64,000 bases of DNA. Source: Ectothiorhodospiraceae bacterium BW-2. GTDB lineage: Bacteria > Pseudomonadota > Gammaproteobacteria > Thiohalomonadales > Thiohalomonadaceae. Below the pieces are notes generated by a model. It was not told the DNA's origin, ran no database searches, and worked only from the letters and a program-made list of their open reading frames with translations. Location of the stretch: contig CP032507.1 of the NCBI GenBank assembly GCA_008375315.1, positions 496,001-560,000 on the forward strand, given 5' to 3'. Positions 10,160-63,977 of the stretch are shown one piece after another. The number at the start of each line of letters is the position of its first letter. Position 1 is the stretch's first letter. The translations under genes were made by a program, and so were the position numbers.

Positions 10160-10435
10160 TTAATGGTACTGCTCAAAATCAACCTCGTAGGCATTGCCAC
10201 CTGTGAATTCAAAAGTGAGGCACCAAGGGCCGTTCACATGAACAGTATAGCGCTTAGGGTTGAAGCCCTACAGAATGTGAAAGTTATAGCCTGGTAAATT
10301 AATATCATCAACACCTGCAGCCTCGTTGATCACAGCCAATCGGATCAGTATCCGTTGGTGCATGCGCTTGTCGATCTTGGATTTGCCTGACTGCCATAGT
10401 GCCGCCAAGCTTTTGCACTTAAAAGTCTTGATCAT
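10160..10435 (-). pseudogene. higB: HigB-like toxin with premature TAG
   Basis: ATG 10435 opens MIKTFKCKSLAALWQSGKSK, IDKRMHQRILIRLAVINEAA and GYNFHIL, then TAG (10268-10270). The same frame continues GFNPKRYTVHVNGPWCLTFE and TGGNAYEVDFEQYH to TAA at 10160. The total is 276 nt, the normal HigB length. A single sense-to-amber change is the simplest explanation. The family's C-terminal catalytic part lies after the stop. Confidence 0.87.
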
Positions 10436-10451
10436 GGGATGAAGTATAATC

Positions 10452-10493
10452 CAACTGGTTACACATGTAAACCAGTTGATTAAATGTGTAACC
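10452..10493 (-). promoter_or_regulatory. higBA promoter with overlapping operator palindromes
   Basis: CAACTGGTT (10452-10460) faces AACCAGTTG (10470-10478). A second pair, GGTTACACAT (10458-10467) and ATGTGTAACC (10484-10493), overlaps it. On the minus strand a -35-like TTTACA and -10-like TATACT are 17 bp apart and sit in these palindromes. The -10 is only ~9 nt from the HigB ATG, so the message would be almost leaderless. This arrangement fits autorepression by HigA. Confidence 0.65.
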
Positions 10494-10642
10494 GTTGGCA
10501 GCCATCGGCAGGGTATCAATAGCCAGCATCGCGTCATTCTCTACCCATGCCAGCACTGCTTTGGCTCTCACGCCAGGCCTCTGACCCTGGCATAGTCGAT
10601 GGGTGTCCTTTATATGTCCGTTATCGTCATCACAAGTAAAGA

Positions 10643-10813
10643 TTACCTAGCGGTTATTGCCGCGTTGAATAATATGTGCCGCTACTCTGACTAAATTGAC
10701 TCTCGGTTTTCTGGGCATCGGGCGTCACTGTCGTTGAGTTAGGGGGACGGTGAAATTGTAACAAAATTTAATTCGTCTCTGACCCCTTTTATTGTATTGT
10801 GACCCCTTTTATT
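10643..10813 (-). mobile_element. RAYT 5' fragment plus leader
   Basis: Read on the minus strand it carries the RAYT leader and ~110 nt of coding sequence (MPRKPRVNLVRVAAHIIQRG frame) before breaking off near 10643. The outer end has TCTGACCCCTTTTATT and a partial repeat of it (GACCCCTTTTATT, 10801-10813). The interval 10500-10640 before it holds nothing I can name. Confidence 0.8.
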
Positions 10814-10843
10814 GCTGGATGGCTGACTTGCTTTTGTATTTAA

Positions 10844-10957
10844 GGCCTTGTTCATCGTTCCGTCAGGCTTGCGGTTTCTATTATTCCCCCCTCCAACCCC
10901 CCCCAGCGGGGGAGGGTTGGGGTGGGGGCAAAAAATGGCGAAACGATGAACAAGGCC
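10844..10957. mobile_element. MITE, 114 bp
   Basis: The ends are GGCCTTGTTCATCG (10844) and its complement CGATGAACAAGGCC (ending 10957). They are flanked by perfect 8-bp duplications GTATTTAA (10836-10843 and 10958-10965). The interior is C-rich then G-rich and could fold as a long hairpin. It is 50 bp upstream of the parD gene, so it may affect its expression. Confidence 0.9.
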
Positions 10958-11008
10958 GTATTTAATATTGAATATATTGAACACACTAAATTATTAAAGG
11001 AGGATATT

Positions 11009-11269
11009 ATGAACAGATCAGCCACCACAACGATGACCGTTCGACTCAGTGGCTCACTCCGCGACTTCGTTGCCTCGAACGTGAGCGAGCACGGTGCCTA
11101 CGAGAACGTTAGCGAATATGTACGCGACCTGATCCGGCGCGACAAAGAACGAAAGGAAACGGAAACATTTGAGCGCCTCAAAGCCGAACTGAAACACGCC
11201 TATGCAGCACCCGAAACAACCTATCACCTGCTGACCGCGGCGGAAGTGATCGCACGCAATAAAGTCTAA
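11009..11269 (+). CDS. parD: ParD-like antitoxin
   Basis: The 86-residue protein starts at ATG 11009 behind a strong AAAGGAGG site. The N-terminal ribbon-helix-helix reads TMTVRLSGSLRDFVASNVSE, with NVSEYVRDLIRRDKE, typical of ParD/CopG. ParD antitoxins neutralise ParE gyrase poisons. The ParE-like gene 6 bp downstream is cut after ~25 codons. Confidence 0.87.
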   Translation: MNRSATTTMTVRLSGSLRDFVASNVSEHGAYENVSEYVRDLIRRDKERKETETFERLKAELKHAYAAPETTYHLLTAAEVIARNKV

Positions 11270-13490: not shown

Positions 13491-13796
13491 TTATGAGACA
13501 ACATCAGGTTCATGCGGCCGAGCCGTTAAGTCAACACCAAGGGCTCGCGTCACGGCCAGTAGAGTCTTCAATGTCGGGTTGCCCTGCGCACTAAATGAAC
13601 GATACAACTGCTCACGAGAAAGTCCTGTTTCCCGGGCAAGATCACTCATACCTTTAGCCCGTGCCACGACTCCCATCGCCTTGGCAATATAGGCAGAATC
13701 ACCTGTTTCCAGTGCATCTGCCAGAAAAACAGCGACTGCCTCATCGTTTTCCAGTGCTTCTGCCGGATCGTAATCAAATATTTTATCGCTCATCAT
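13491..13796 (-). CDS. Addiction-module antidote protein, Xre type
   Basis: The 101-residue protein reads MSDKIFDYDPAEALENDEAV, then AYIAKAMGVVARAKGMSDLA, REQLYRSFSAQGNPTLKTLL, which is the COG3636-type antidote family with a helix-turn-helix. It follows its RelE-like toxin with a 14-nt overlap. Its TAA is the first codon beyond the RAYT leader end. Confidence 0.85.
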   Translation of the reverse strand: MMSDKIFDYDPAEALENDEAVAVFLADALETGDSAYIAKAMGVVARAKGMSDLARETGLSREQLYRSFSAQGNPTLKTLLAVTRALGVDLTARPHEPDVVS

Positions 13797-14091
13797 TCAT
13801 CCCCCACTCTTCTGCAAGGCGCTGTGCTATCTCAATATCGCGTTGCTGCGTACTCTTGTCGCCACTGCACAGTAAAATGACGATCTCGCTTCCTCGTCGC
13901 TTAAAGTAGATGCGATAGCCGGGACCATAATGAATTCGTAGTTCACTGAGACCCTGGCCGACTGGCTGAACATCCCCTGGCAAGCCATTAGCTAAACGGA
14001 ATATACGCGCTGCAATCGTCGCTTTAGCACGCTGATCCCGTAGTTTGCGTTCCCACTTACGGTAATTATCAGTCTGTTTGATTTCAAGCAT
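13783..14091 (-). CDS. RelE/HigB-like toxin (Gp49 superfamily)
   Basis: The start at 14091 (MLEIKQTDNYRKWERKLRDQ) is preferred to the ATG at 14121, because family members start here and the upstream codons lie in a palindrome. It contains ARIFRLANGLPGDVQPVGQG, LRIHYGPGYRIYFKRRG and IVILLCSGDKSTQQRDIEIA. Such toxins are mRNA endonucleases acting at the ribosome. The 102-residue protein appears intact and is paired with the 13491 antitoxin. Confidence 0.87.
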   Translation of the reverse strand: MLEIKQTDNYRKWERKLRDQRAKATIAARIFRLANGLPGDVQPVGQGLSELRIHYGPGYRIYFKRRGSEIVILLCSGDKSTQQRDIEIAQRLAEEWGMNDER

Positions 14092-14097
14092 AGGCAA

Positions 14098-14117
14098 TTG
14101 TAGTCCATAAACTACAA
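14098..14117 (-). promoter_or_regulatory. Palindromic operator before the RelE/Xre pair
   Basis: TTGTAGT (14098-14104) and ACTACAA (14111-14117) form an inverted repeat 7 bp before the toxin start. Position and symmetry fit binding of the antitoxin for autorepression. Confidence 0.55.
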
Positions 14118-14150
14118 TCATTCAATGATACCGACTCAGCCGGAGCCAAC

Positions 14151-14275
14151 AAGGTAGTGGTGGCTAACAGCATAGAGTCCGAAGTCGGTTTGTGGTGGCC
14201 GTTTGCCCGCTTCGCTCAGCTGTTTACGATAGCTGACATAGCATGTAGGTCGGGTTAGCATAGCGTAACCCGACA
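14151..14275. repeat. Fragment of the 9019-9636 gene followed by a REP-like palindrome
   Basis: 14151-14240 repeats 9318-9408 of the uncharacterised gene nearly exactly. It is followed by GTAGGTCGGGTTAGCATAGC and GTAACCCGAC, a palindrome of the GTCGGGTT...AACCCGAC type. Similar palindromes occur at 18124, 19640, 46361 and 50193. Confidence 0.75.
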
Positions 14276-14303
14276 GCGAAGTTGCAGCGCAGCCTCCCCC
14301 CCA

Positions 14304-15038
14304 CTACACGCTGCCTGATGATTTGGGCAAACCGGCTGAAGCGTTGGTTTTTCGCCATCCCGTTCGCCTCCCCCGCTTAGCTGCCTGTAATCGCGTACCG
14401 GTTAGGTGTTCTATTTCGGCAATAAACCGTTCATTACCCAGTGCCAGGCCTTTATTCGTTGCCTTTCGAATATCATCTATCAGTTGCCCGTCAATTTGAT
14501 ATTTAAACAGGTCACGATAGTTGTGTTGTCGCTCTTTATCGGTGTGACCGAGTCTGAGGTAGCTTGAATGGGGGGTTAGCATGGCTATGGTTTTACCCAA
14601 ACCATTCCCCTGATAGCTTGACCAGCTATAGTTGGCCGGGTCATCGACCATGCCGGCTCTGACCGGGTTTAGTTCTATGTAACGGTAAAGCTGCAGCAAG
14701 TAGCGCTCTTCCTGCACTAAGCAGGAGCGAAAACGCCCTTCCCATAGGGTGCCTGACCGTTTATAGCTGCGGTTAAAGTATTGGACATAGCGACGCCCCA
14801 CGGCTTGCATCATTGCGGAGAGGGCTGTAGCGCTGCCGGGGGTGCAGAGCAGGTGAACATGGTTGGTCATCAGTACCCAGCTGTGGAGTGAGACTTCGAA
14901 TTGCTTGGCATAGTCTTTTAGCCAGGTGAGATAAACCCGCATATCGTCATCACAGGCAAAGATAACCTGGCGGTTATTGCCGCGTTGAATAATGTGTGCC
15001 GCTACTCCGGCTAAATTGACTCTCGGTTTTCTGGGCAT
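14304..15038 (-). CDS. REP-associated tyrosine transposase (RAYT)
   Basis: The 244-residue protein starts MPRKPRVNLAGVAAHIIQRG. It has the HUH motif TNHVHLL (His60 and His62) and the catalytic-tyrosine region YRYIELNPVRAGMV (Tyr120 or Tyr118). RAYTs are single-strand Y1 transposases that recognise REP palindromes, and a REP-like palindrome lies just past its 3' end. It is the only complete copy; at least eight 5'-anchored fragments and one 3' remnant are scattered over 2.4-20.5 kb. Its leader ends in the hicB stop. Confidence 0.93.
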   Translation of the reverse strand: MPRKPRVNLAGVAAHIIQRGNNRQVIFACDDDMRVYLTWLKDYAKQFEVSLHSWVLMTNHVHLLCTPGSATALSAMMQAVGRRYVQYFNRSYKRSGTLWEGRFRSCLVQEERYLLQLYRYIELNPVRAGMVDDPANYSWSSYQGNGLGKTIAMLTPHSSYLRLGHTDKERQHNYRDLFKYQIDGQLIDDIRKATNKGLALGNERFIAEIEHLTGTRLQAAKRGRRTGWRKTNASAGLPKSSGSV

Positions 15039-15113: not shown

Positions 15114-15504
15114 AACGCATGGCAGCCCTGGCCGCATCTGCCAGAAATCCCGAGCGCGTAGCCCCGTGCGTGCGTGCGTAGTCATCGATCTTAGCCAACA
15201 GACGACGAGGGAGAGTGATATTGATCTTCTCCGACCGACCATCATACCGCGATACATCCACATCAACTGCCGCCCACACGCCGTCTGCATAGTCTGGATT
15301 GGTGCGATGTTCAGCAATAGCTCTGGGTACAGGAACCTCGCCACCATCTTCTGTTAGCCCTTCAAGATGCAGGTCGATGGCTTCAAGAACCGAATCCAGG
15401 GCAGAATCAAAGGAGTCGCCAGATGAGAAGCAGCCAGGCAAATCAGGCACAGTCACGCCAAAGCGCACACCATCATCAGAGTGCAAAACAACCGGGAAAC
15501 GCAT
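15112..15504 (-). CDS. hicB: HicB antitoxin
   Basis: The 130-residue protein shows MRFPVVLHSDDGVRFGVTVP, DLPGCFSSGDSFDSALDSVL and a C-terminal ribbon-helix-helix (INITLPRRLLAKIDDYARTH, RSGFLADAARAAM). It would neutralise HicA and repress the operon. It lies 9 bp after hicA. Its TAA is created at the junction with the RAYT leader (TTAATAAAA), so the last codons may differ from the ancestral gene. Confidence 0.93.
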   Translation of the reverse strand: MRFPVVLHSDDGVRFGVTVPDLPGCFSSGDSFDSALDSVLEAIDLHLEGLTEDGGEVPVPRAIAEHRTNPDYADGVWAAVDVDVSRYDGRSEKINITLPRRLLAKIDDYARTHGATRSGFLADAARAAMR

Positions 15505-15513
15505 TGTAACCTC

Positions 15514-15696
15514 CTATTTCCAACCCGCCTGTTTACGAATGCTGTTAAGTGTACCGGCAGGAATGTCACTGTCAGGATGCTTCACAGTCACCAAGCCAGG
15601 CTTGTTCGGGTGCTTGAACTGGTGATGCGAGCCTTTCACTCGCGCCAAAAACCAGTCGTCGGCTTCCAATTGCTTGATGATCTGTTTGCTGTTCAT
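15514..15696 (-). CDS. hicA: HicA toxin
   Basis: This 60-residue mRNA interferase starts at ATG 15696 (MNSKQIIKQLEADDWFLARV). KGSHHQFKHPNKPGLVTVKH holds the catalytic His of the double-stranded-RNA-binding-like fold, followed by IPAGTLNSIRKQAGW. The upstream alternative start (MVIITT) lies in the operator palindrome. The full hicAB pair looks intact. Confidence 0.93.
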   Translation of the reverse strand: MNSKQIIKQLEADDWFLARVKGSHHQFKHPNKPGLVTVKHPDSDIPAGTLNSIRKQAGWK

Positions 15697-46397: not shown

Positions 46398-48188
46398 CTA
46401 CCGCCACACCAGCCGTCGTGTACCAATACTCACCATCGCAAACGATTTTAATTTCCACTCTACCGCAGGAAAAAGCTTTTCTAATTTCGGCTGATACGAG
46501 GCTAACTGCCCTTCTGCGTCATCTAACAGCTTTTTTACCGGTTTCAGTTCAGCCAGCTGCTCCCGACTCATCTCACTCAGCTGTTCCGCGCTCAATTGGA
46601 GCTCTTTCAGTGCCAGATATTTCAGCTCAAATAGCAGATCATACAGCGGTGCCTGGCGCTTATCGGGGCGAATTTCAAATAGCAGGTCACTATAGCCGCC
46701 GCCCAATGAGAGCTCCGAACGCGGCAGATAGTAGAGATCATTGGTCAGCAGCAGCAGTAGCGTGGTTTTGAGTGTAAACTCATTACTCCAGCGCATATCG
46801 CGATTATCAAGCACACTATAAAAACGCTGTTCGATAAATTCAGCTAGCGGCTCAAATTTGGCCTCGGTATAGAGCAGCTCCGCCACCGCCTGTTGGCGGT
46901 TATTATCTTCATAGCCATTGAGCAGCTGCTGCTGAATTCGATCGATATAGAGCGAGCGCACCACCTGATTAGGGATAGTCACCTTTAGCTTTCCGATTGG
47001 TGAGACATCCTGAATCGTTAAGACCCCAAAATAGACCAGTAGTGAGATAATAAAACTGGCATCAGGTGGATCGTTTAGCATCGCTTTAACCCCAAAATTT
47101 TGTGCCAGCTTGGCTACCCATAGCGACTGCTGCGGATTGAGCGCTGCTTCAATCACCTCCGCGCCATGGGGTAACGCGGCAATATAGCGCAGCCGGTTTT
47201 TATCCATCGCTAAATTGTCATCTAACAGCTCATTAGGGTAGCGACACAGCTGCTGCCACTCATCCCAAAAGTAGAGGCAGAGCGTCGGGTTATAGAGTCG
47301 GGTGGTATCATCACCACTAAAGCGGTAGCCGTTATAGAAGTTCTGCATCAACGACATCGCCTCATCTGCCGCACCCTCGGGTAGCTCGCACTCTCGCGCT
47401 ATTTGGCGATTAAGTTGCATCACCTCTTCAGCGGTAAAACCGCAGAGTTTGGCAAAGTGTGGCCGCTGACTGATGTTTTTCGCTACATTGTAGCCGCTGG
47501 TGATATCGCTCATCACCACCGGTGAGACACCGGTGATAAACACCCGCTCTAAGCCTAGGCCATCGGTCGCTGCTTTGACCGCTTTAAAGACGGTTTTAAT
47601 CACCCCTTCACCTTTAACCAGTTCGTTATAGCGCTTTCTGCCATGCTCACGACTGGTTAACACCTCGTTAGCAAAGTTGTCGTATTCGTCTATCAGCAGG
47701 TAGAGCGGATATCCTGCATGGTGGCATCGACTAACCAGCCGCTCAAAAGAGCGCAAAGCATCCCCTTCATCAATCAGCTCCGCTGCGCTAATTGCTTGAG
47801 GCCACCACGATTGATAGCGAAGTAACGCATCACGAATGCTATTATTGATATGGCCATACAGCCCCTGTTTAATCTGCTCGTGGTCGCCATTTGAGTTAAT
47901 GGTGGAGAAGTTCCACTTCAACATAAAGTAGCGGTTACGGTTCGGGGTCGGGTTTTGCCCTATGGCTAAATCGCCAAACAGAGGCTCAAACTGATCCGCT
48001 GCAGCGATGTCGTAGTAGCTCTCTAGCAGCGTTAGCCACAGCGTTTTACCAAAACGGCGCGGGCGTAGAAACAGCAGCTGCCGTCCTGCCGCCTCTAATT
48101 CGTGCAGCAGGTCGGTACGATCAAAATAGAGTCCACCCTCCTCTCTGAGGGTTTTAAAGTGACCCAAACCATATGAGATATTTACCAT
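46398..48188 (-). CDS. AAA-ATPase-like / PD-(D/E)XK protein (copy 2)
   Basis: 596 residues from ATG 48188 behind AAGGA; the TTG two codons earlier is less likely. It starts MVNISYGLGHFKTLREEGGL, then has the Walker-A-like RPRRFGKTLWLT and Walker-B-like LYLLIDEYDNF. The segment between them (GDHEQIKQGLYGHINNSIRD...) is shared with copy 3. It differs from copies 1, 3 and 4 in the sensor/lid part (HFAKLCGFTAEEVMQLNRQI, RFSGDDTTRLYNPTLCLYFW), yet its C-terminal nuclease domain is nearly identical to theirs. Function unknown. Confidence 0.9.
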   Translation of the reverse strand: MVNISYGLGHFKTLREEGGLYFDRTDLLHELEAAGRQLLFLRPRRFGKTLWLTLLESYYDIAAADQFEPLFGDLAIGQNPTPNRNRYFMLKWNFSTINSNGDHEQIKQGLYGHINNSIRDALLRYQSWWPQAISAAELIDEGDALRSFERLVSRCHHAGYPLYLLIDEYDNFANEVLTSREHGRKRYNELVKGEGVIKTVFKAVKAATDGLGLERVFITGVSPVVMSDITSGYNVAKNISQRPHFAKLCGFTAEEVMQLNRQIARECELPEGAADEAMSLMQNFYNGYRFSGDDTTRLYNPTLCLYFWDEWQQLCRYPNELLDDNLAMDKNRLRYIAALPHGAEVIEAALNPQQSLWVAKLAQNFGVKAMLNDPPDASFIISLLVYFGVLTIQDVSPIGKLKVTIPNQVVRSLYIDRIQQQLLNGYEDNNRQQAVAELLYTEAKFEPLAEFIEQRFYSVLDNRDMRWSNEFTLKTTLLLLLTNDLYYLPRSELSLGGGYSDLLFEIRPDKRQAPLYDLLFELKYLALKELQLSAEQLSEMSREQLAELKPVKKLLDDAEGQLASYQPKLEKLFPAVEWKLKSFAMVSIGTRRLVWR

Positions 48189-48259
48189 GTGCAATCCTTA
48201 ATTTACTCGTTACCACGCAGGAGCGTGGAAACGAGAATAAACGAGAATAACCCGACAAC

Positions 48260-50050
48260 TTAGCGCCACACCAACCGCCGGATACCAAGACTCACCACCG
48301 CAAACGACTTTAATTTCCACTCCACCGCCGGAAAGAGCTGCTCTAATGTCGGCTGATACGAGGCCAACTGCCGCTCTGCGTCATCTAACAGCTTTTTTAC
48401 CGGTTTCAACTCAGCTAACTGCTCCCGACTCATATTAGATAGCTGCTCTGCACTCAATTGGAGATCTTTCAGTGACAGATATTTCAGTTCAAATAGCAGA
48501 TCATACAGCGGTGCCTGACGCTTATCGGGGCGAATCTCAAATAGCAGGTCACTATAGCCGCCGCCTAAGGATAACTCTGAGCGCGGCAGGTAGTAGAGAT
48601 CATTGGTCAGCAGCAGCAGTAGCGTGGTTTTAAGCGTCAGCTCATTACTCCAGCGCCTATCGCGATTATCGAGCACGCTATAAAAACGCTGTTCGATAAA
48701 TTCAGCTAGCGGCTCAAATTCGGCCTCGGTATAGAGCTGTTTCGCTACCGCCTGCTGGCGGTTATTATCCTCATAGCCATTTAACAGCTGCTGCTGAATT
48801 CGGTCGATATAGAGCGAGCGCACCACCTGATTCGGAATCGTCACCGTTAACTCGCCTAACAGATTCACCGATTCAATCGTTAATACGCCAAAATAGACCA
48901 GTAGCGAGATGATAAAACTGGCATCAGCCGGATCGTTTAACATCGCCGCTACGCCAAAGTCCTGCGCTAACTTCGCGACCTGTAGTGGCTGCTGCGGATT
49001 AAGCGCCGCCTCAATCACCTCTGTGCCATGCGGTAGTGCGGCGATATAGCGTAGCCGGTTTTTATCCATCGCTAAATTGTCATCTAACAGCTCATCAGGG
49101 TAGCGACAGCGCCGCTGCCAATGTTTCAAAAAGTAGAGGGTGAGGGTCGGGTTATAGAGCCGCTGCGTCTCTTCACGGCAGAAGCGGTAGCCGTTATAGA
49201 AGTTTCGCATCATCGCTAACGCTTCATCTGCTGTGCTATCGGTTAGCTGGCACTGCTCGGCAATTTGGTGACACACCGGTTGCAGCTCCTCAGTGGTTAA
49301 GCCGCACAGAGCATGAAATTCGGGCCAGTGGCTAATATTTTCGGCCACATTGTAGCCGCTGGTGATATCGCTCATTACGACTGGCGAGACGCCGGTAATA
49401 AAGACTCGCTCTAAGCCGAGGCCATCAGTTGCCGCTTTGACTGCTTTAAATACGGTTTTGATAACGCCTTCCCCCTCAACCAGCTCATTATAACGCTGCC
49501 GTCCCTGTTCACGACTGGTGAGCACCTCATTCGCAAAGTTATCGTACTCATCAATCAGCAGGTAGAGCGGATACCCCGCATGACGGCATCGGCTAACCAG
49601 CCGTTCAAAAGAGCGCAACGCATCCGCTTCATCAATCAGCTCCGTTGCACTAATCGCTTGAGGCCACCACGGTTGATAGCGAAGTAACATATCGCGAATA
49701 CTATTATTGATATGGCCATACAGTCCCTGTTTAATCTGCTCGTGGTCGCCACTTGGGTTAATGGTGGAGAAGTTCCACTTCAGCATAAAATAGCGGTTAC
49801 GGTTCGGAGTCGGGTTTTGCCCTATGGCTAAATCACCAAACAGCGGCTCAAATTGATCCGCTGCAGCGATGTCGTAGTAGCTCTCTAGCAGCGTTAGCCA
49901 TAGCGTTTTGCCAAAACGGCGCGGGCGTAAAAACAGCAACTGCCGTCCTGCCGCCTCTAATTGGTGCAGCAGGTCGGTACGATCAAAATAGAGTCCCCCC
50001 TCCTCTCTGAGGGTTTTAAAGTGACCCAAACCATATGAGATATTTACCAT
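48260..50050 (-). CDS. AAA-ATPase-like / PD-(D/E)XK protein (copy 3)
   Basis: The 596-residue protein is a mosaic. Its N-terminal ~220 residues follow copy 2, whereas residues ~230-340 (HALCGLTTEELQPVCHQIAE, FCREETQRLYNPTLTLYFLK) are identical to copy 4. A middle patch (PQQPLQVAKLAQDFGVAAML, ESVNLLGELTVTIPNQVVRS) is unique. The nuclease signature YSDLLFEIRPDKR...FELKYL is intact. ATG 50050 has GGAT upstream. Confidence 0.9.
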   Translation of the reverse strand: MVNISYGLGHFKTLREEGGLYFDRTDLLHQLEAAGRQLLFLRPRRFGKTLWLTLLESYYDIAAADQFEPLFGDLAIGQNPTPNRNRYFMLKWNFSTINPSGDHEQIKQGLYGHINNSIRDMLLRYQPWWPQAISATELIDEADALRSFERLVSRCRHAGYPLYLLIDEYDNFANEVLTSREQGRQRYNELVEGEGVIKTVFKAVKAATDGLGLERVFITGVSPVVMSDITSGYNVAENISHWPEFHALCGLTTEELQPVCHQIAEQCQLTDSTADEALAMMRNFYNGYRFCREETQRLYNPTLTLYFLKHWQRRCRYPDELLDDNLAMDKNRLRYIAALPHGTEVIEAALNPQQPLQVAKLAQDFGVAAMLNDPADASFIISLLVYFGVLTIESVNLLGELTVTIPNQVVRSLYIDRIQQQLLNGYEDNNRQQAVAKQLYTEAEFEPLAEFIEQRFYSVLDNRDRRWSNELTLKTTLLLLLTNDLYYLPRSELSLGGGYSDLLFEIRPDKRQAPLYDLLFELKYLSLKDLQLSAEQLSNMSREQLAELKPVKKLLDDAERQLASYQPTLEQLFPAVEWKLKSFAVVSLGIRRLVWR

Positions 50051-50225: not shown

Positions 50226-52004
50226 CTAGCGCCACACCAACCGCCGGATACCAAGACTCACCACCGCAAACGATTTTATCTTCCACGCCACCGCCGGAAA
50301 GAGCTGCTCCAATGTCGGCTGATAGGTGGCCAACTGCCGCTCTGCGTCATCTAACAGCTTTTTTACCGGTTTCAACTCAGCTAACTGCTCCCGACTCATA
50401 TTAGATAGCTGCTCCGCACTCAATTGGAGATCTTTCAGTGACAGATATTTCAGTTCAAATAGCAGATCATACAGCGGTGCCTGACGCTTATCGGGGCGAA
50501 TCTCAAATAGCAGGTCACTATAGCCGCCGCCTAAGGATAACTCTGAGCGCGGCAGATAGTAGAGATCATTGGTCAGCAGCAGCAGTAGCGTGGTTTTGAG
50601 CGTCAGCTCATTACTCCAGCGCATATCGCGATTATCGAGCACGCTATAAAAACGCTGTTCAATAAAGTCAGCTAGCGGCTCAAATTCGGCCTCGGTATAG
50701 AGCAGCTCCGCCACCGCCTGTTGGCGGTTATTATCTTCATAGCCATTGAGCAGCTGCTGCTGAATTCGGTCGATATAGAGCGAGCGCACTACCTGATTCG
50801 GAATCGCCACCTCCAGCTTCCCAAGTGGCGAGACATCCTGAATCGTTAAGACCCCAAAATAAACCAGTAGTGAGATAATAAAACTGGCATCAGGCGGATC
50901 GTTTAGCATCGCTTTAACCCCAAAATTTTGTGCCAGCTTGGCTACCCATAGCGACTGCTGCGGATTAAGCGCCGCCTCAATCACCTCCGCACCATGGGGT
51001 AGTGCGGCAATATAGCGTAGCCGGTTTTTATCCATCGCTAAATTGTCATCTAACAGCTCATCAGGGTAGCGACAGCGCCGCTGCCAATGTTTCAAAAAGT
51101 AGAGGGTGAGGGTCGGGTTATAGAGCCGCTGCGTCTCTTCACGGCAGAAGCGGTAGCCGTTATAGAAGTTTCGCATCATCGCTAACGCTTCATCTGCTGT
51201 GCTATCGGTTAGCTGGCACTGCTCGGCAATTTGGTGACACACCGGTTGCAGCTCCTCAGTGGTTAAGCCGCACAGAGCATGAAATTCGGGCCAGTGGCTA
51301 ATATTTTCGGCCACATTGTAGCCGCTGGTGATATCGCTCATTACGACTGGCGAGACGCCGGTGATAAAGACTCGCTCTAAGCCTAGGCCATCGGTCGCCG
51401 CTTTGACCGCTTTAAATACCGTTTTAATCACCCCCTCGCCGCCGACTAGCTCATCGTAGCTCTGCCGTCCCTGTTCACGGCGGGTGAGCACTTCATTGGC
51501 AAAGTTGTCATACTCATCAATCAGCAGGTAGAGCGGAGTATCATACGCCGCCAACTCACCCAATAAATTTTCAAAGCTATGTATCCCATCTTGCGGGTCA
51601 ATTTGAACCGGCCGGTTCAGCCATTGACGATATCTGTTGCAAAAGCGCTCAATTGAGCTATTCAGATGGTTATGCAAAGAGCGGCTAATATGGGCTAAAT
51701 CGCCACTTGGATCGATGACCGAAAAGTTCCACTTTAAAATAAAGTAGCGGTTACGGTTCGGGGTCGGGTTTTGCCCTATGGCTAAATCGCCAAACAGGGG
51801 CTCAAATCGATCCGCTGCAGCGATGTCGTAGTAGCTCTCTAATAGCGTTAGCCATAGCGTTTTGCCAAAACGGCGCGGGCGTAGAAACAGAATCTGTTCG
51901 CCAACGGCTTCAAGTGCGTGCAGCAGTTCGGTGCGATCAAAGTAGAGCTGGCCATCAGTTCTTAACCGCTTAAAATCGCCTTTGCCATACGGAATATTTA
52001 CCAT
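50226..52004 (-). CDS. AAA-ATPase-like / PD-(D/E)XK protein (copy 4)
   Basis: 592 residues. The N-terminus (MVNIPYGKGDFKRLRTDGQL) follows copy 1. The inter-Walker segment (GDLAHISRSLHNHLNSSIER, NRYRQWLNRPVQIDPQDGIH) is unique. The middle is identical to copy 3 and the C-terminal third to copy 1. The Walker-A- and Walker-B-like motifs and the ExK nuclease motif are present. A GGAGC site precedes ATG 52004. The three tandem genes are separated by 71 and 175 bp with TTCCCACG palindromes and a REP-like palindrome. Confidence 0.9.
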   Translation of the reverse strand: MVNIPYGKGDFKRLRTDGQLYFDRTELLHALEAVGEQILFLRPRRFGKTLWLTLLESYYDIAAADRFEPLFGDLAIGQNPTPNRNRYFILKWNFSVIDPSGDLAHISRSLHNHLNSSIERFCNRYRQWLNRPVQIDPQDGIHSFENLLGELAAYDTPLYLLIDEYDNFANEVLTRREQGRQSYDELVGGEGVIKTVFKAVKAATDGLGLERVFITGVSPVVMSDITSGYNVAENISHWPEFHALCGLTTEELQPVCHQIAEQCQLTDSTADEALAMMRNFYNGYRFCREETQRLYNPTLTLYFLKHWQRRCRYPDELLDDNLAMDKNRLRYIAALPHGAEVIEAALNPQQSLWVAKLAQNFGVKAMLNDPPDASFIISLLVYFGVLTIQDVSPLGKLEVAIPNQVVRSLYIDRIQQQLLNGYEDNNRQQAVAELLYTEAEFEPLADFIEQRFYSVLDNRDMRWSNELTLKTTLLLLLTNDLYYLPRSELSLGGGYSDLLFEIRPDKRQAPLYDLLFELKYLSLKDLQLSAEQLSNMSREQLAELKPVKKLLDDAERQLATYQPTLEQLFPAVAWKIKSFAVVSLGIRRLVWR

Positions 52005-56165: not shown

Positions 56166-56690
56166 ATGGCTCTGACAACGCATCAACTACGACTTAATCT
56201 GCAAAGCGCGGCGACGCTAAAAACGGGTGATAGCGTCAATGCCAAGGTGCTGGATGTCCAAGGCAATAAACTGCTACGACAGATCGGAGCCGGTCAAGGA
56301 GCTGATTGCCCCTCTGCTATCACAGTGGAGCGATCCGCCATCTCCCGGCACCACACTACAGGCGCGGGTTATCACCAGCGGTCAAAATCTGACTCAACTG
56401 TAGATCGGTAACGAAAAGATCTGGTTTAAGGCGGGAGAAGGTGCTGCACTCAAACCGGGCAGCCTGGTGCTGCTCCAGACAACCGCCCGCGATAGTCAAA
56501 CCGTACAACTGCAACCGTTAGAGGGGCCACTGCGCCCCTTCAAACAGATTGAGACCGAAGCTCTGTGCCATATCCTGCCACGCCAGCAGCCGCTGCATGA
56601 GGGGTTAGGCCGACTCATGCAGCTAGTTCAGAGCAGGAGGCAAAGGGCGAACAGCCCTACAGCTCCTCAAAATAGGTATAACCACTCAAA
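56166..56690 (+). pseudogene. FliK-like gene, decayed
   Basis: ATG 56166 reads MALTTHQLRLNLQSAATLKT, GDSVNAKVLDVQGNKLL, then must shift frame to ELIAPLLSQWSDPPSPGTTL, QARVITSGQNLTQL, TAG, IGNEKIWFKAGEGAALKPGS, VLLQTTARDSQTVQLQPLEG and LPRQQPLHEGLGRLMQLVQS. This resembles flagellar hook-length-control (FliK) proteins. At least one frameshift and one stop make it a pseudogene. It converges on speA. Confidence 0.6.
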
Positions 56691-58531
56691 CCGTGCTTAA
56701 ATTCGTTATAAAAATAGTGCTGCTGTTCAAGCGGCACCCCACTCTGCTGTAGCAGCTGACGGTAGTGCTCTAATAGCAGTTCACTATCGAAGTGGAGATA
56801 GTGGAGCAGCTCCGCAATCGTATCTCCCTGCTGCGTATTGACTAGGCGATAGCGGCCATCCGGCTCCATAGCGACATCAACCACATGGGTGTCGCCAAAC
56901 AGATTATGGATATCACCCAAAATCTCCTGATAGGCGCCGACCAAAAAGATCGCCAAAATAGTCGGCTTATCTGCCACTAAGGGGGGGAGTAGAATCGCCG
57001 GTTCAACCCTGCCGTCATCAATATAGTGATCGATACGGCCATCCGAGTCGCAGGTTAAATCCTCCAACACCACCCGCTGCGACGGTGGCTGCTTCAGACC
57101 ACTAACCGGCATTATCGGGAAAATCTGCTCAATCCCCCAAATATCGGGCAACGACTGAAAAATTGAGAGGTTACAGAAATATTTTCCCACTAACTGCTGC
57201 TGCAGCTGTTGATAAATGTCAGCCTGCAACGGCTGACTTCTGTCGAGCTGCGGCATTAAACGGGCAGCGATCACCCGATAGAGCTGCTCCGCATCGGCTC
57301 GCTGCTGCAGAGTGATTAACCCCGGCAAAAAGTGCTGCTGCACACCCTCCATTGCAGTCATCGCATCATAGTGGATATCGACCACAGAGCGCTGCCCTAT
57401 CTGTTGCAGCGCCTGATATAACTCAAGCAGAGGTTCAGCTGCCCCTGTGGTGATAGCCGGTACGGTAGTGGTATCAGGTATCTCACTATCGATCACTTCG
57501 GTTAACAGCAGCGCATGGTGTGCGGTTAAGCCGCGTCCCGATTCGGTTAAAATTTCGGGATGAGGCAGCTGATGCTGTCGACATACCGTTAACAGCGGCT
57601 GCACCAACGCTTCCGCATAGTGCTGTAGGGTATAGTTTATCGAGTTATAGCTACTGCTGCGGCTGCCGTCGTAATCGATTCCCAGCCCGCCCCCCATATT
57701 AATCGCACTCACCGGTACACCCAGTTTTCGGAGTTCAACATAGAAGCGGGACATCTCTCGCACTGCCTGTTGAATGTCGTGAATATTAGCTACCTGTGAG
57801 CCGATATGGGTATGTAACAGATAGAACGACGCTAACTGCTGCTGCTGGCGTAACCGCTTAATCAGAATAAAGAGGTGATCGGTTGTCAGACCAAATTTAG
57901 CTCTGGTGCCGCCACTATTCTGCCACTTACCGGCTCCCCGACTGGTTAAGCGTACCCGTACCCCTAGTCGCGGCTGGAGTTGTAGCTTTTGCGCCTCATC
58001 CAGTACCAAATCGAGTTCAGAGAGTTTTTCGATAATAAGGGTTACATCAATTCCGAGCTTCAGCCCGATCAATGCCAGGCGAATATACTCCCGATCTTTA
58101 AAGCCGTTACAGACAACCCGGCTCCCCGGCTGGCTCAGCCCCAGAACCGCCAACAGCTCCCCCTTACTCCCCGCCTCCAGCCCTAGCCGACCGCCCCCCC
58201 CCTGCTGCAGAGCGCGAACCACACTATGCTGCTGATTCACCTTAATCGGGTAGAGCGGCTGATAACATCCTTGATAGCCACTCGCAGCCATCACCTGTTC
58301 AAATGTGCGGGTTAGCTGCTGCAGACGATGGTGTAAAATATCGGGAAAACGGATCACAACCGGTAGCTGTAGCGATAACGACTGCAGATCAGCGCAGAGC
58401 TCGGTCAGTGTTACCTTCTCCCCTGCACTACCCTGTGGCAGAACAGTTAACTCTCCCTGCGCGTTAACCGCAAAGTAGCCCTCGCTCCAGTTAGCGATGT
58501 TATAGTTTTTAGCCGCACACCATGCTGACAT
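56657..58531 (-). CDS. speA: Biosynthetic arginine decarboxylase
   Basis: About 624 residues; ATG 58531 is preferred to the TTG one codon earlier. The PLP-binding region reads CYQPLYPIKVNQQHSVVRAL (Schiff-base Lys). GLEAGSKGELLAVLGLSQPG, RLTSRGAGKWQNSGGTRAKF, HTHIGSQVANIHDIQQAVRE and NMGGGLGIDYDGSRSSSYNS are SpeA signatures. It converts arginine to agmatine and CO2 for polyamine synthesis. It is the last gene of a five-gene operon, starting 8 bp after the TrpF-like gene with its ribosome site in that gene's last codons. Confidence 0.95.
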   Translation of the reverse strand: MSAWCAAKNYNIANWSEGYFAVNAQGELTVLPQGSAGEKVTLTELCADLQSLSLQLPVVIRFPDILHHRLQQLTRTFEQVMAASGYQGCYQPLYPIKVNQQHSVVRALQQGGGGRLGLEAGSKGELLAVLGLSQPGSRVVCNGFKDREYIRLALIGLKLGIDVTLIIEKLSELDLVLDEAQKLQLQPRLGVRVRLTSRGAGKWQNSGGTRAKFGLTTDHLFILIKRLRQQQQLASFYLLHTHIGSQVANIHDIQQAVREMSRFYVELRKLGVPVSAINMGGGLGIDYDGSRSSSYNSINYTLQHYAEALVQPLLTVCRQHQLPHPEILTESGRGLTAHHALLLTEVIDSEIPDTTTVPAITTGAAEPLLELYQALQQIGQRSVVDIHYDAMTAMEGVQQHFLPGLITLQQRADAEQLYRVIAARLMPQLDRSQPLQADIYQQLQQQLVGKYFCNLSIFQSLPDIWGIEQIFPIMPVSGLKQPPSQRVVLEDLTCDSDGRIDHYIDDGRVEPAILLPPLVADKPTILAIFLVGAYQEILGDIHNLFGDTHVVDVAMEPDGRYRLVNTQQGDTIAELLHYLHFDSELLLEHYRQLLQQSGVPLEQQHYFYNEFKHGLSGYTYFEEL

Positions 58532-58539
58532 CAAATTTG

Positions 58540-59253
58540 CTATCTACATCCTTCGTGCAATAGCCAGTCGGCTTCTTTTGTTTTTTCAATGAATAAGCGG
58601 CATTTGAGCATATTTTTGACTCTTAAGCCGTCCGACATTCTGTCGCTCACACCATTTTCTACATCAACACCAAACGGTTTGACCGTTTCAATTGCACGGT
58701 GAATATTGTCTGGATTCAAGCCTCCTGCTAAAAAAACCGGAGATTGGCACTTGCGCACGATTTCCGCGCAATGTTGCCAATTACCGGTTTTCCCCGTTCC
58801 GCCTATCCAAGCACTATCTAACAGAAAAGCATCTACCACATCATCGTAGTAGCGAATAAACTCATCGTCACTCATCTGATTTTCTTCAGACTTTTCTGAC
58901 ATTAATTTAATAATTTTAAAATCCCCCCCCATTTTTTCTCGTAGTTTAGTTATTTCCTGACGAGAAATAGGTGCATAGGCTTGAATGGCATCAGCTGCTT
59001 TCAATGTAGAGAGAATATCAAGCAATGTATCGCCAGTTAAATCTGTCAGTAGTGTTTTACAAATGTTCGCTGGAAGATAAGAAAAAATATGTTTGAATTT
59101 TTCTGCTTTAGCCAGATAATCTTGATCACTAAAAATATGAAAACCTAGAAAATCCGCACCAATAAATGAAGCCTCATAGGCGGCGTCTAAAGATTCAAAT
59201 TCACATAATTTAATGCGGGTATAGTGTACGCTAAGATCCCATACATGATTCAT
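58540..59253 (-). CDS. TrpF-like phosphoribosylanthranilate isomerase homologue
   Basis: 237 residues from ATG 59253 (MNHVWDLSVHYTRIKLCEFE), chosen because GAGAGGA lies 9 nt upstream and overlaps the alternative TTG. TrpF catalyses an Amadori rearrangement of a phosphoribosylamine. The general base Cys17 (IKLCEFE, TrpF KICG) and general acid Asp146 (FLLDSAWIGGTGKTGNW) are kept, with the phosphate-binding FLAGGLNPDNIHRAI and GVDVENGV. The KICG glycine is replaced by Glu and an insertion follows residue 120. No other trp genes accompany it, so the substrate may not be phosphoribosylanthranilate. Confidence 0.85.
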   Translation of the reverse strand: MNHVWDLSVHYTRIKLCEFESLDAAYEASFIGADFLGFHIFSDQDYLAKAEKFKHIFSYLPANICKTLLTDLTGDTLLDILSTLKAADAIQAYAPISRQEITKLREKMGGDFKIIKLMSEKSEENQMSDDEFIRYYDDVVDAFLLDSAWIGGTGKTGNWQHCAEIVRKCQSPVFLAGGLNPDNIHRAIETVKPFGVDVENGVSDRMSDGLRVKNMLKCRLFIEKTKEADWLLHEGCR

Positions 59254-59313
59254 TAATTGGTATCCTCTCAAGCAGGTTTATTATTGAACTTCTAATGAAC
59301 ACTCTTAAGTATA

Positions 59314-60096
59314 TTAATCAAGCAGCAAAGCAGGGGTAAGACTATCGAGGAAAATTGTCACCTGATCGACGCCTTGCCGCATGACTTCCAAGAACGCAGT
59401 ACCAATAATAACACCATCTAATTTTTCAAGTTGCTTAAGCTTGCGAATATCATCCGGAGTTCTAACTCCAAAGCCAGCCATTATCTTGATGTCAGAACGA
59501 TAGGCTTTTGAGCGTCGAATGCACTCGTTCAATTCTGAATGAGAGAATAATTTCGCGCCGGTCATTGATGCTGAAGTTAGATAAACCAGTGGCTCTTTAA
59601 CCGCACTACCTAAGTATTTCTCCATATCGGCTTCAGTCATTTCCGGATAGACGCATTGAATAAACTCAATATCGTAGCGTTTGGACTGCTCAACATACGG
59701 TTTGACATCTTCAACTTCCCATTCAAGTAAAACAGAGTCAATCTTGCCGTACATTTTTTGCAGCAAGATTTCAAAACCCAAGGCATCAACCACTTCTTGA
59801 TAGACCACGGCAACGGAAGGTTTTTTAAAAGCTTGCAATGTTTCTAGTACGGTTAAAGCGTTTTGATACTGAGAAGCCGTTTGATGGGCAGTGCGGATAA
59901 TTTGATTGGCAAAATCAGAAAATTTTGAAGTAACGGGAAAAGTCGTTTCAATAATAGTAACGCTGGGATGTTCATGTAAAATATCGAGTATTACATGATA
60001 GGTATCAGGATCGGGAAAATTGGGAATAACATAAATCATCAATGCCAAAGCCCCGTTGTCATTAGCTGTTTGAACTGCCTGATGCAATGTTGCCAT
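59314..60096 (-). CDS. TrpA-like (tryptophan synthase alpha) homologue
   Basis: This 260-residue (beta/alpha)8 protein has ATG 60096 behind AAGGAG. TrpA cleaves indole-3-glycerol phosphate by retro-aldol chemistry. Both catalytic acids align: Glu50 (VTIIETTFPV) and Asp61 (SKFSDFANQ), with the same 11-residue spacing as Glu49 and Asp60 of TrpA. The phosphate sites are YLTSASMTGAKLFS, IMAGFGVRTPDDI and GVIIGTAFLEVM. The ELGIPFSDPLADGP loop is otherwise much changed and no TrpB is present, so it probably acts alone, like BX1-type lyases, on indoleglycerol phosphate or another substrate. Confidence 0.85.
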   Translation of the reverse strand: MATLHQAVQTANDNGALALMIYVIPNFPDPDTYHVILDILHEHPSVTIIETTFPVTSKFSDFANQIIRTAHQTASQYQNALTVLETLQAFKKPSVAVVYQEVVDALGFEILLQKMYGKIDSVLLEWEVEDVKPYVEQSKRYDIEFIQCVYPEMTEADMEKYLGSAVKEPLVYLTSASMTGAKLFSHSELNECIRRSKAYRSDIKIMAGFGVRTPDDIRKLKQLEKLDGVIIGTAFLEVMRQGVDQVTIFLDSLTPALLLD

Positions 60097-60106
60097 TTAT
60101 GACTCC

Positions 60107-61288
60107 TTATAGAGTGGAAAAACCCTGAAACAGAAGTTCCTTAAAGCAAGCTAATTCATAAAGAGCCAGGCTTTCTATTTCTTGATTAGCGGTTTTCTGT
60201 ACAATGGTTTCTGTATCTAAAAAATGGTGAAACTGAAACAAATAATCTTGTATAACAAGTTTTTCAAGTTGGATTAAATAATGGTAATTCTTTTGGAAGG
60301 TAATATCTTTGTAAATAGGTAATAACCAAGGTGCCGTAGCATACAAAACGAAACTGCTTTTTTCTTTTGCTAAGGCTAACAACCATAATGGAAAAGAAGC
60401 GAGCACACCAGTTTCAACAATGAGCAATGGCTGTCCCGTTTGAAGCATATCTAATTGTGCTTTTGATACTTGCCAAAACGCCTGAGGTAAATCAGCATGG
60501 GCAAAAAGCTTCTTAATATAATCGTGGCAAAACACATGCAAATCACACTCACCCTGCTGGTTTAACGTGTCGTATAAGGTATCAGCCATCGTATAATAAA
60601 ATTCAGTATCACCGGCACAATATTTTAGCACTGTACGATTTAATAACAAGGGTTTCAGTGGCGGCAATTGCATTCCTTGATTTTGTAGCCAGACAAAGCC
60701 CAAATAAACCAATAAAGTATCGCGCAATAAAAATACCGGAGTAACAGCCGGATGCTGTTGCAAACGAGGCTGCATCCATCGCATAAAGTTTACAATTTCT
60801 TGTATGACTGAACGGGTATTTTCTTGCCAAATTTCCATGTCACGCTGATGGGTAAAACAATGCGAAATGTCCGGTAACTGATTACCTTGCTGCAAAAGAT
60901 AATCAAGATAAGCATTTAAAGAAATTTGTTCGCCTGTGATCTCTGGCGTTTGTTGAAACACTGTAGGTTGCGCGGATTCAGGGCACAAATAAAAAAGACT
61001 TTCTTTAGAAACAGCACCTAGCTGTTTTACCACCTTACCAACAAAAGCAGCAAGACGCTCATAGGCATCTTCTGTGCCGACAATGGCATCAATGATCGTT
61101 TCGGCATTATCAATCCCAAATGTTTCATCCTGAAGATCGTCCATATATTTTAAGATTGCAGAGGCTTCTTGTCCTAAATTAAATAGCGTATCTTTCGGGC
61201 ACTTTGCAATATTCGTTTGTTCATATAGCTGGACGCGGGCTTGTGAGTAACGCGTCAAAAAGATCATCTCTTGTTGATTGTCAGGCAT
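60107..61288 (-). CDS. Uncharacterised 393-residue protein in the amidinotransferase operon
   Basis: I do not recognise this protein. It has no signal peptide or clear membrane segments. The N-terminal half is helical and acidic (LGQEASAILKYMDDLQDETF). Near 175-215 there is TPVFLLRDTLLVYLGFVWLQ, and near 285-320 LLIVETGVLASFPLWLLALA followed by FVLYATAPWLLPIYKD; the latter alternation recalls a Rossmann-like or phosphoribosyltransferase-like core, but no motif is decisive. It lies 10 bp before the TrpA-like gene and 32 bp after the amidinotransferase gene, so it belongs to the same pathway. ATG 61288 has AGGAAA upstream. Confidence 0.75.
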   Translation of the reverse strand: MPDNQQEMIFLTRYSQARVQLYEQTNIAKCPKDTLFNLGQEASAILKYMDDLQDETFGIDNAETIIDAIVGTEDAYERLAAFVGKVVKQLGAVSKESLFYLCPESAQPTVFQQTPEITGEQISLNAYLDYLLQQGNQLPDISHCFTHQRDMEIWQENTRSVIQEIVNFMRWMQPRLQQHPAVTPVFLLRDTLLVYLGFVWLQNQGMQLPPLKPLLLNRTVLKYCAGDTEFYYTMADTLYDTLNQQGECDLHVFCHDYIKKLFAHADLPQAFWQVSKAQLDMLQTGQPLLIVETGVLASFPLWLLALAKEKSSFVLYATAPWLLPIYKDITFQKNYHYLIQLEKLVIQDYLFQFHHFLDTETIVQKTANQEIESLALYELACFKELLFQGFSTL

Positions 61289-61320
61289 TATTTTTCCTGT
61301 TTGTTATGTATAAATTCTTA

Positions 61321-62421
61321 TCAGAAATAAGACATTAATCCACCACGACGACGAATATCTAAGGTTGCACAATGAAAACCGCCTAGAAACGGATAATAAT
61401 TATCAAAAGCACATGGAATAGGCTTTAATCCCCAATTCTTGAAAGCCTTAATGAGCGGCTGTTGATTTTTAGCGACAATAACGCGCTCTTCATCCAGCAT
61501 CAATATATTGATAGCAATCCACTTACTCACTGCTTGAATGGGATCTTTATTGGGGACAGGCTCAGGGGCTACTAGAATATCCCAAGTTTTCAAGATATCA
61601 GGCAATTTTTTTACGTCGATATAATCCTGACTAACCACTACTTTGCCGGGGGCCAAGGGCATAAAGGTCGTGTCGATATGAATAGCTTCAGGATTGCAGG
61701 TTTCTAGCACATGGATGTTGTAATCACTACCTAAGTGACGCTCCAACCACAGAATACCTAAATCATTAGTGACATGGCTACGTTGCACAAACAAGTCCCG
61801 TCCACAACGCACGAAATCCGCAGCGTCGAATACCGGTTCAAATTCAGTAAGTACGTAACCCATTGGTTCTCCGGCTTCAGGAAAACGATGATCGGTTTTG
61901 TATAAAGCATCCGTGAGTTGAGGTTTGGGAGCTGCGCTCCAACGTGCGCCAGCTTTGAGATATTCTTTAAACAGAGAGCGATACGCCCAGGCTTCGAAAT
62001 AGCGTCCTCGATCCGCCATAGGTGTTTCAATGATTTCGTTACCAATCACGATGAAAGGATCTCGTGGGTTGGCGGCACAAAAACCATGCGCCATGTGCCA
62101 ATCCGGTGAGGCGTAGGGTCGCGTGTAATCGACAATATCCGGTCGGCGTACCGTTACGCCTTCTGCTTCCAAAATATGAATGAATTCATCCAGTTCTTTT
62201 TGAGCGCCATCAATTAAGTGCTGCGGATAAGGCCTGCCAGCACCCGCAGTTCTGGCGGTCAGTTTTTCCCATTCACCGGGCGCAACCGTGTGATCATTGA
62301 TAACATTCCAGGAAGAAAATACAGCATTTTCCAATCTGCCGACAATGACTTCTTCTAAGGGATCCCATTCAGTATAAGAATTTACCGGGCATGCGGATGT
62401 TGTTTGTGCATTATCACTCAT
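61321..62421 (-). CDS. Glycine-amidinotransferase (AGAT)-family enzyme
   Basis: 366 residues from ATG 62421; a TTG eight codons earlier is less likely. The family moves the amidino group of arginine onto an amine, releasing ornithine, through a covalent Cys. The catalytic triad is visible: Asp202 (FDAADFVRCGRDLFVQRSHV), His248 (NPEAIHIDTTFMPL) and Cys351 (GGFHCATLDIRRRG). The N-terminus SYTEWDPLEEVIVGR is typical. The acceptor amine is unknown; relatives act on glycine, lysine, inosamine phosphate or polyketide precursors. First gene of the operon ending in speA, which also consumes arginine. Confidence 0.92.
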   Translation of the reverse strand: MSDNAQTTSACPVNSYTEWDPLEEVIVGRLENAVFSSWNVINDHTVAPGEWEKLTARTAGAGRPYPQHLIDGAQKELDEFIHILEAEGVTVRRPDIVDYTRPYASPDWHMAHGFCAANPRDPFIVIGNEIIETPMADRGRYFEAWAYRSLFKEYLKAGARWSAAPKPQLTDALYKTDHRFPEAGEPMGYVLTEFEPVFDAADFVRCGRDLFVQRSHVTNDLGILWLERHLGSDYNIHVLETCNPEAIHIDTTFMPLAPGKVVVSQDYIDVKKLPDILKTWDILVAPEPVPNKDPIQAVSKWIAINILMLDEERVIVAKNQQPLIKAFKNWGLKPIPCAFDNYYPFLGGFHCATLDIRRRGGLMSYF

Positions 62422-62458
62422 TATTTTTTCATCATTATTTATCAAAAATAAAAGGGGG

Positions 62459-62519: not shown

Positions 62520-63977
62520 CTATTCAGCTACTTTCAATGCTAAAAAGCGTGGACCACTTTGACGAACAACCAGAACCGGAACAGAGCGACCCGCAGCCAC
62601 ATCACCCACTAGCTCCATAAACGACTCGACCCCCTTCACTTGGCGATTATTAAACTGGGTAATCACATCTCCCTGACGCAGACCAGCACTCAAGGCAACC
62701 CCTTCAGCCTTCTCTACGATCACACCGCCACTCTCAATATTGAGCTGTTTGCGCTGTTGCGGGCTCACCTCGGCTACCACTAAACCGACTCTGGCAACCT
62801 CCCCTTTCGGAGCCGGTGGTTTAGGTGCCACACGGCTGCGACTAGCGTTCGCCCCCTGTTGGGGTAGCTCGCCTATCTCAACCTTTAAAGCCATCTCTTT
62901 GCCGTTGCGCAGCAGTTTTAATTCGGCCCTCTTACCGATCCGAGTTTTACCGACCAGTGGCGGTAGATCGGAAGAGCGCTGTAGTTCAGTACCATTATAG
63001 GCAAGGATAATATCGCCCACCTCAAGACCCGCTTCAGCAGCCGGCGAGCCATCCAGTATTTGGGCTACCAGCGCCCCCTGAGGGCGATCCATACCAAACG
63101 ATTCAGCCAGCTCGCGGGTTACATCCTGAATCAGCACACCGAGCCAACCACGCGCCACAGAGCCGTTCTCTTTGAGCTGCTTGACCACATTTTGCGCCAC
63201 ATCGACCGGAATCGCGAACGACAACCCCATAAATCCACCAGTACGGCTGTAGATTTGGGAGTTAATCCCCACCACCTCGCCGCTAAGATTAAACAGCGGC
63301 CCACCCGAGTTACCGGGATTAATCGCCACATCAGTCTGAATGAACGGTACATAGTTTTCAGAGGGCAGGCTACGCCCTAAAGCGCTCACCACACCGACGG
63401 AGACCGAGTGATCAAAACCAAAGGGGGAGCCGATAGCCATCACCCACTCGCCCACTTTCAAGTCGGTACTATCACCAAACTTAACCACTGGCAGATTATC
63501 GGCATTAATCTTTAGTAGCGCCAAATCAGTCTGCGGATCGGTTCCGATCACCTCCGCCTCCAGCTCGCGCCGATCGCTTAAACGGACTAAAATCGTATCG
63601 GCATTCTCGACCACATGGTTATTTGTCAACACGAAACCCTGCTCATCGATAATAAACCCCGAACCGAGCGACTGCGACTCAAAGCCATCGCCGTGACCAT
63701 CGGGCTGAGGATGAAAATTGAAGTTATCCCCAAAAAAACGCTTGAGCAGATCATCCCAAGGCGTCCCCTTATACTCATTCGGGATCTGAAATAGCTCCAC
63801 CCCTGAGCGTTTCACCCTCTGGTGGGTACTGATATTGACCACCGCAGGGCTGTTCTGCTCGACCAGTTCGGTAAAGTTAGGTAGCCCTACAGCCGGAAGC
63901 GCCGATAGCGGCAGCGCCACCAGTAGCAACATCACCCCGCAACTAAGCAAAAACGAAAAGTAGTGTTGTCGTTTCAT
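62520..63977 (-). CDS. degQ: DegQ/MucD-type periplasmic serine endoprotease
   Basis: The 485-residue HtrA protease has a signal peptide (residues 1-27, LLSCGVMLLLVALPLSALPA). The trypsin-like domain has His121 (LTNNHVVENA), Asp151 (DPQTDLALLKI) and Ser224 (AINPGNSGGPLF), followed by two PDZ domains (about 262-350: GWLGVLIQDVTRELAESFGM; about 390-480: GGVIVEKAEGVALSAGLRQG). It degrades misfolded envelope proteins. Length and two PDZ domains fit DegQ/MucD. Its promoter lies mostly beyond the window. Confidence 0.93.
   Translation of the reverse strand: MKRQHYFSFLLSCGVMLLLVALPLSALPAVGLPNFTELVEQNSPAVVNISTHQRVKRSGVELFQIPNEYKGTPWDDLLKRFFGDNFNFHPQPDGHGDGFESQSLGSGFIIDEQGFVLTNNHVVENADTILVRLSDRRELEAEVIGTDPQTDLALLKINADNLPVVKFGDSTDLKVGEWVMAIGSPFGFDHSVSVGVVSALGRSLPSENYVPFIQTDVAINPGNSGGPLFNLSGEVVGINSQIYSRTGGFMGLSFAIPVDVAQNVVKQLKENGSVARGWLGVLIQDVTRELAESFGMDRPQGALVAQILDGSPAAEAGLEVGDIILAYNGTELQRSSDLPPLVGKTRIGKRAELKLLRNGKEMALKVEIGELPQQGANASRSRVAPKPPAPKGEVARVGLVVAEVSPQQRKQLNIESGGVIVEKAEGVALSAGLRQGDVITQFNNRQVKGVESFMELVGDVAAGRSVPVLVVRQSGPRFLALKVAE

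Follow-up and report, generated by a model that had tools for sequence, protein, structure and literature searches.

What does a 393-residue protein of no recognised family do in the middle of a gene series that otherwise encodes an amidinotransferase and two relatives of tryptophan-pathway enzymes? The question was addressed in a 64,000-nucleotide stretch of Ectothiorhodospiraceae bacterium BW-2 (contig CP032507.1, positions 496,001 to 560,000), referred to here as the window; coordinates are those of the window unless another locus is named. As a tentative answer, the protein (X393) is read as part of an imported operon of four genes whose product would be a small heterocycle derived from guanidine. 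This compound would be made by a proposed 2-aminoimidazole route, with X393 either supplying the amine or modifying the product.

The gene series and the A+T-rich island

X393 is encoded on the minus strand at 60107-61288 (ATG start, 393 aa), exactly where the first-pass annotation had placed it. It is a genuine gene and more than a chance open reading frame. At the base composition of X393, the chance of an open frame of 393 codons is P about 6e-12. Using codon statistics trained on three neighbouring genes, the annotated frame gave a log-odds of +0.17 and the other five frames were negative. A Shine-Dalgarno-like AGGAAAA lies ahead of the ATG, and the TAA stop falls within the AAGGAG upstream of the TrpA-like gene.

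The series is tightly packed and runs entirely on the minus strand in the order amidinotransferase, X393, TrpA-like, TrpF-like and speA. X393 is thus second, 32 nt from its upstream and 10 nt from its downstream neighbour, which agrees with its earlier description as tightly embedded. The four genes ahead of speA are probably expressed as one transcript. A 25-nt imperfect direct repeat (80%) at 61271-61295 and 62404-62428 spans the start regions of X393 and the amidinotransferase gene. Because it covers both starts, the two share similar leaders and first residues (MPDN, MSDN).

These four genes, with 39-45% G+C, form an A+T-rich island at 58540-62445, between degP (62520-63977) and speA. In sliding windows, G+C was 38-46% in the island and 48-54% on either side (about 52% around), and GC3 was 0.32-0.39 in the four genes versus 0.58 in speA and 0.56 in degP. 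The boundary of the composition shift coincides with the junction of the TrpF-like gene and speA. Together with the absence of X393 from the other genomes of the order (protein search, 20 genomes), this break points to import of the four genes as a cassette by horizontal transfer. Flanking repeats were looked for at the island and none were found. The cassette encodes no oxidase, transporter or regulator.

The last gene of the series, speA (56657-58534, minus strand), begins about 6 nt past the stop of the TrpF-like gene and has host-like G+C. It encodes a biosynthetic arginine decarboxylase of 625 aa with Pfam arginine decarboxylase domains. Most of the other genomes in the family and order have copies with 47-50% identity, and the island genes were absent from the flanks seen.

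Elsewhere in the window, a set of four close paralogues, each ~595 aa long, is encoded at 334-2112, 46398-48194, 48260-50050 and 50226-52004, three of them in tandem. They start with MVNI(P/S)YG and contain an RPRRFGKT segment.

Enzymes encoded next to X393

The first gene of the operon (61321-62445, minus strand; G+C 45%) encodes an SxtG-type amidinotransferase of 374 aa if read from TTG 62445; the likely true start is ATG 62421. Its best PDB match was SxtG (6u1r, E 6e-154, 516 bits), ahead of HsvA (331 bits) and human GATM (323 bits). The catalytic triad is kept, with Asp207, His256 and Cys359 aligned to Asp254, His303 and Cys407 of GATM. The signatures [EQ]A[ILM]HIDTT and YPFLG[SG]FHC (or a near form) are present in the window protein, in SxtG and in the proteins of loci L056, L132, L057 and L058, whereas nearly all other amidinotransferases have PMHID and PFGG instead. 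In a tree of 44 amidinotransferases, from which SxtG itself was left out, the window protein fell into a six-member group (support 99/93), most of which has signatures in common with SxtG. Its partners in the group are MAG proteins from Thiotrichales, Acidobacteriia, Planctomycetaceae and Desulfuromonadaceae and a protein of one further bacterium; the other subgroup members sit in unrelated gene contexts. The compound amidinated by SxtG is the alpha-amino ketone 4-amino-3-oxo-guanidinoheptane (PMC7073992). Judging from its SxtG subgroup, the acceptor of the window enzyme would likewise be an alpha-amino ketone.

Further amidinotransferase loci were seen. Positions 662000-681900 of the same genome (locus L024) hold a small gene cluster at locus coordinates 4836-10443 that, judged by reading, encodes a cupin, a 1044-aa AMP-binding-type protein, an aminotransferase-like protein and another amidinotransferase, a distant one with 34% identity to that of the window. 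Close to this intact copy, at 15182-15514 of the locus (near 677139-677510 of the genome), lies a 110-aa C-terminal amidinotransferase fragment, apparently a gene remnant. L132, from an Acidobacteriia MAG, encodes at 13684-14421 a protein that weakly matches DUF3865/haem-oxygenase-like families, ~2.6 kb downstream of an SxtG-type amidinotransferase.

The TrpF-like isomerase (58540-59253, minus strand; 237 aa from ATG 59253) matched Pfam PRAI with E 2e-16. In an alignment with Thermotoga maritima TrpF, the catalytic Cys7 and Asp126 are kept and a Tyr occupies the position of Arg36, the residue that in the T. maritima enzyme contacts the carboxylate of anthranilate. The protein thus belongs to the fold family of TrpF and of recruited kin such as AdeK and has the same catalytic Cys/Asp pair. 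It differs from TrpF in the Arg to Tyr change, in a score far under family cut-offs (89 bits versus 215 for the NCBI TrpF equivalog) and in being an extra copy besides the normal trpF. There is a precedent in AdeK for specialised metabolism having recruited an isomerase of the HisA/TrpF type (PMC13055916).

The TrpA-like TIM-barrel lyase (59314-60096, minus strand; 260 aa) matched Pfam Trp_syntA with E 5e-16. Glu50 and Asp61 align with the catalytic Glu49 and Asp60 of 28 canonical TrpA proteins, and the phosphate-site GFG/GT is kept, features that it has in common with TrpA including the free-standing BX1, which works without TrpB. In contrast to these likenesses, identity to canonical TrpA is ~25%, the score of 65.5 bits lies under the trpA equivalog cut-off of 102, and the substrate pocket is altered: the GxPFSDPxAD region and the Asn and Tyr positions are changed and many indole-pocket positions are lost. 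This genome also has a standard trpF and trpA, at 2.41 Mb, which leaves the cassette copies free for another role. Since catalytic residues are kept and recognition positions changed, both cassette proteins look like active enzymes with changed substrates.

The first-pass annotation had treated the amidinotransferase, TrpF-like and TrpA-like genes as one pathway unit, and this frame is supported. The cassette is an unusual mix of known enzyme families, of which no described counterpart was found in the literature searched.

Searches for relatives of X393

X393 had been said to share no motif with amidinotransferases or Trp enzymes. This was borne out, as X393 gave no sequence match in Pfam, NCBIfam, PHROG, PADLOC or the PDB. 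Protein searches with a pass mark of E 1e-3 detected no homologue in 20 genomes of the order, 369 of the class, 399 of the phylum, 339 cyanobacteria or 17 genomes with near amidinotransferases. Outside the own genome only two loci passed, both spurious: L153 is an isoleucyl-tRNA synthetase, judged by reading its sequence, and the match in L154 runs across a stop. Weaker matches in relatives led to unrelated proteins. No relatives were found in plasmids and phages at E 10, and pattern scans of genome and viral contig collections, which can reach close relatives only, gave no match.

Loci with the nearest amidinotransferases were collected from 84,980 species, and none of the best 80 listed has an X393, TrpA-like or TrpF-like gene in its flanks. 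When X393 was compared by hhalign with the 1,339 proteins of collected loci, only X393 itself and places chosen for likeness to it were returned. A regular expression for its RD...NR...(D/E)TG order matched X393 alone. Among the matches listed, no relative operon was found in the other genomes searched, so that co-function of the four genes is without comparative support.

Some leads were taken as chance. A terpene-synthase-like DDxxD at residues 50-54 (DDLQD) had no profile support, and matches to Pfam Pox_RNA_pol (E 0.02) and RhoGAP (E 0.08) were sub-threshold. As no search returned a relative, X393 is an orphan and, on these comparisons, apparently lineage-restricted; relatives may be present in metagenome collections.

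Proposed route, alternatives and known systems

In the proposed 2-aminoimidazole route, the TrpF-like isomerase would carry out an Amadori rearrangement of 5-phosphoribosyl-amine (phosphoribosylamine) to 1-amino-1-deoxyribulose-5-phosphate, an alpha-amino ketone. The SxtG-type amidinotransferase would then transfer the amidino group of arginine to the amine of this compound. Ring closure of the resulting guanidino-ketone would give 2-aminoimidazole-4-glycerol-phosphate, which is the 2-amino counterpart of imidazole-glycerol-phosphate and also analogous to indole-glycerol-phosphate. Retro-aldol cleavage by the TrpA-like lyase would release 2-aminoimidazole and glyceraldehyde-3-phosphate, and X393 would either provide the starting amine or alter the product. 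The substrates, the sequence of reactions, the end product and the part played by X393 are all putative. The route is favoured by the operon spacing, ribosome-binding sites, coding statistics and single composition class of the four genes, and by the fact that a TrpF-type rearrangement yields the kind of acceptor that SxtG uses. Against it count the lack of a relative operon among the matches listed, of a phosphoribosyltransferase motif in X393 and of an oxidase, transporter or regulator in the cassette, as well as the derivation of the amidinotransferase specificity from a subgroup whose other members sit in unrelated contexts. A stronger form of this proposal, in which the cassette builds 2-aminoimidazole, or a closely related compound, out of arginine and ribose phosphate along an unrecognised route that follows the carbon logic of indole, and X393 is the first of a new family catalysing an essential step, was considered unlikely.

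Phosphoribosylamine is made by the housekeeping PurF, so the scheme has no strict need for X393. A tailoring or accessory role therefore stays a strong rival. Instead of catalysing part of the core route, X393 could serve the cassette in tailoring, as a scaffold, for self-protection or in connection with export; this is a serious possibility, although short of probable. The sequence from TrpF-like isomerase to amidinotransferase to TrpA-like lyase is complete without a fourth enzyme, and small-molecule cassettes commonly have fast-evolving orphan proteins among their accessory parts. However, X393 is the second of the four genes and ends within the ribosome-binding site that serves the TrpA-like gene, as would be expected for a stoichiometric partner. 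It also lacks a membrane-protein pattern beyond one stretch with a mean hydropathy of 2.0.

Alternatively, the amidinotransferase might partner SpeA in a guanidino-amine route, for example from lysine via homoarginine to homoagmatine, with X393 and the Trp-like genes separate from it. In L056 (Thiotrichales MAG BB2, 8067-11086), a 65% identical SxtG-type amidinotransferase begins at the end of speA on the same strand; glycosyltransferase genes were observed upstream of this pair. In sponges, OroA and the decarboxylase OroE make homoagmatine (PMC12833800), and in the window speA is last in the gene series. Against this, the island composition stops exactly ahead of speA, which is a housekeeping gene in most relatives although these have no X393, and the gene order of L056 is not that of the window. 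The partnership with SpeA was regarded as rather unlikely.

In a further reading, X393 would be an enzyme of the phosphoribosyl- or glycosyltransferase type and would produce the N-phosphoribosyl substrate for the TrpF-like isomerase. This follows the first-pass annotation, which had suggested synthesis of a phosphoribosylated substrate for that isomerase and a hydrophobic stretch as a possible nucleotide- or phosphoribosyl-binding core. Such an enzyme would fill the sole missing step class (the TrpD role), and the order FLLRD...LLLNR...LLIVETGVLASFP resembles, by eye, the beta-alpha-beta order of class I phosphoribosyltransferases. The stretch itself is present: residues 288-307 (LLIVETGVLASFPLWLLALA) hold the most hydrophobic 19 residues of the protein (mean 2.00). 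Its interpretation as a binding core found no support at motif level. The 13-residue class I PRPP motif is absent from X393; the best partial match in the stretch agreed at 7 of 12 positions, versus a commonest best score of 8 among 391 size-matched control proteins (330-460 aa). The motif argument is thus no better than chance and carries no weight. Also absent from X393 are the glycine-rich GTGGD motif of the TrpD type, P-loop and Rossmann GxGxxG patterns, TrpD profile matches in Pfam or NCBIfam and, at E up to 10, any match to the phosphoribosyltransferase family profiles of these libraries. Likeness to class I phosphoribosyltransferases is therefore confined to a superficial strand-helix motif order, whereas the PRPP motif and a profile match are both missing. 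AlphaFold2 without alignment gave unusable models (pLDDT 34.7 for the whole protein, 41.0 for residues 150-393), and a Foldseek search with the low-pLDDT model of residues 150-393 yielded nothing (best E 2.7). Neither of the two outcomes that would have counted against the suggestion, a confident unrelated fold or homologues mostly in other contexts, was obtained, because no homologue was found and the models were too poor. A phosphoribosyltransferase function of X393 is doubtful.

Synthesis of a modified indole, with the Trp-like paralogues acting on Trp-pathway intermediates and the amidinotransferase decorating an amino-indole, is very improbable. In its favour, both enzymes are homologues of Trp-pathway enzymes and the genome has ordinary trpF and trpA genes. 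Against it, the TrpF-like protein has lost the Arg that binds anthranilate, the TrpA-like protein has lost most positions of the indole pocket, and the cassette has no TrpC or TrpD partner.

If the 2-aminoimidazole proposal is true, 2-aminoimidazole would be assembled by the logic of the tryptophan pathway: ribose would contribute two ring carbons, and glyceraldehyde-3-phosphate would be released. We know of no such route from the literature. Since only four genes are involved, the idea can be tested directly in E. coli. X393 also illustrates concretely how a protein embedded in a pathway can escape placement by profile libraries and sequence searches alike.

Among known systems, the saxitoxin pathway provides the best solved match to the window amidinotransferase, SxtG (6u1r), which has the triad and signatures in common with it. 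The cassette differs in having no further recognisable gene of that pathway; the partners of the SxtG-type enzyme here are Trp-like enzymes and X393. In Streptomyces, RohP and its partners oxidise arginine on the way to 2-aminoimidazole and azomycin. Should the proposed scheme be correct, the cassette would have the end product 2-aminoimidazole in common with this route, but it encodes no PLP arginine oxidase, and ribose phosphate would provide the ring carbons of its product, in the manner of indole.
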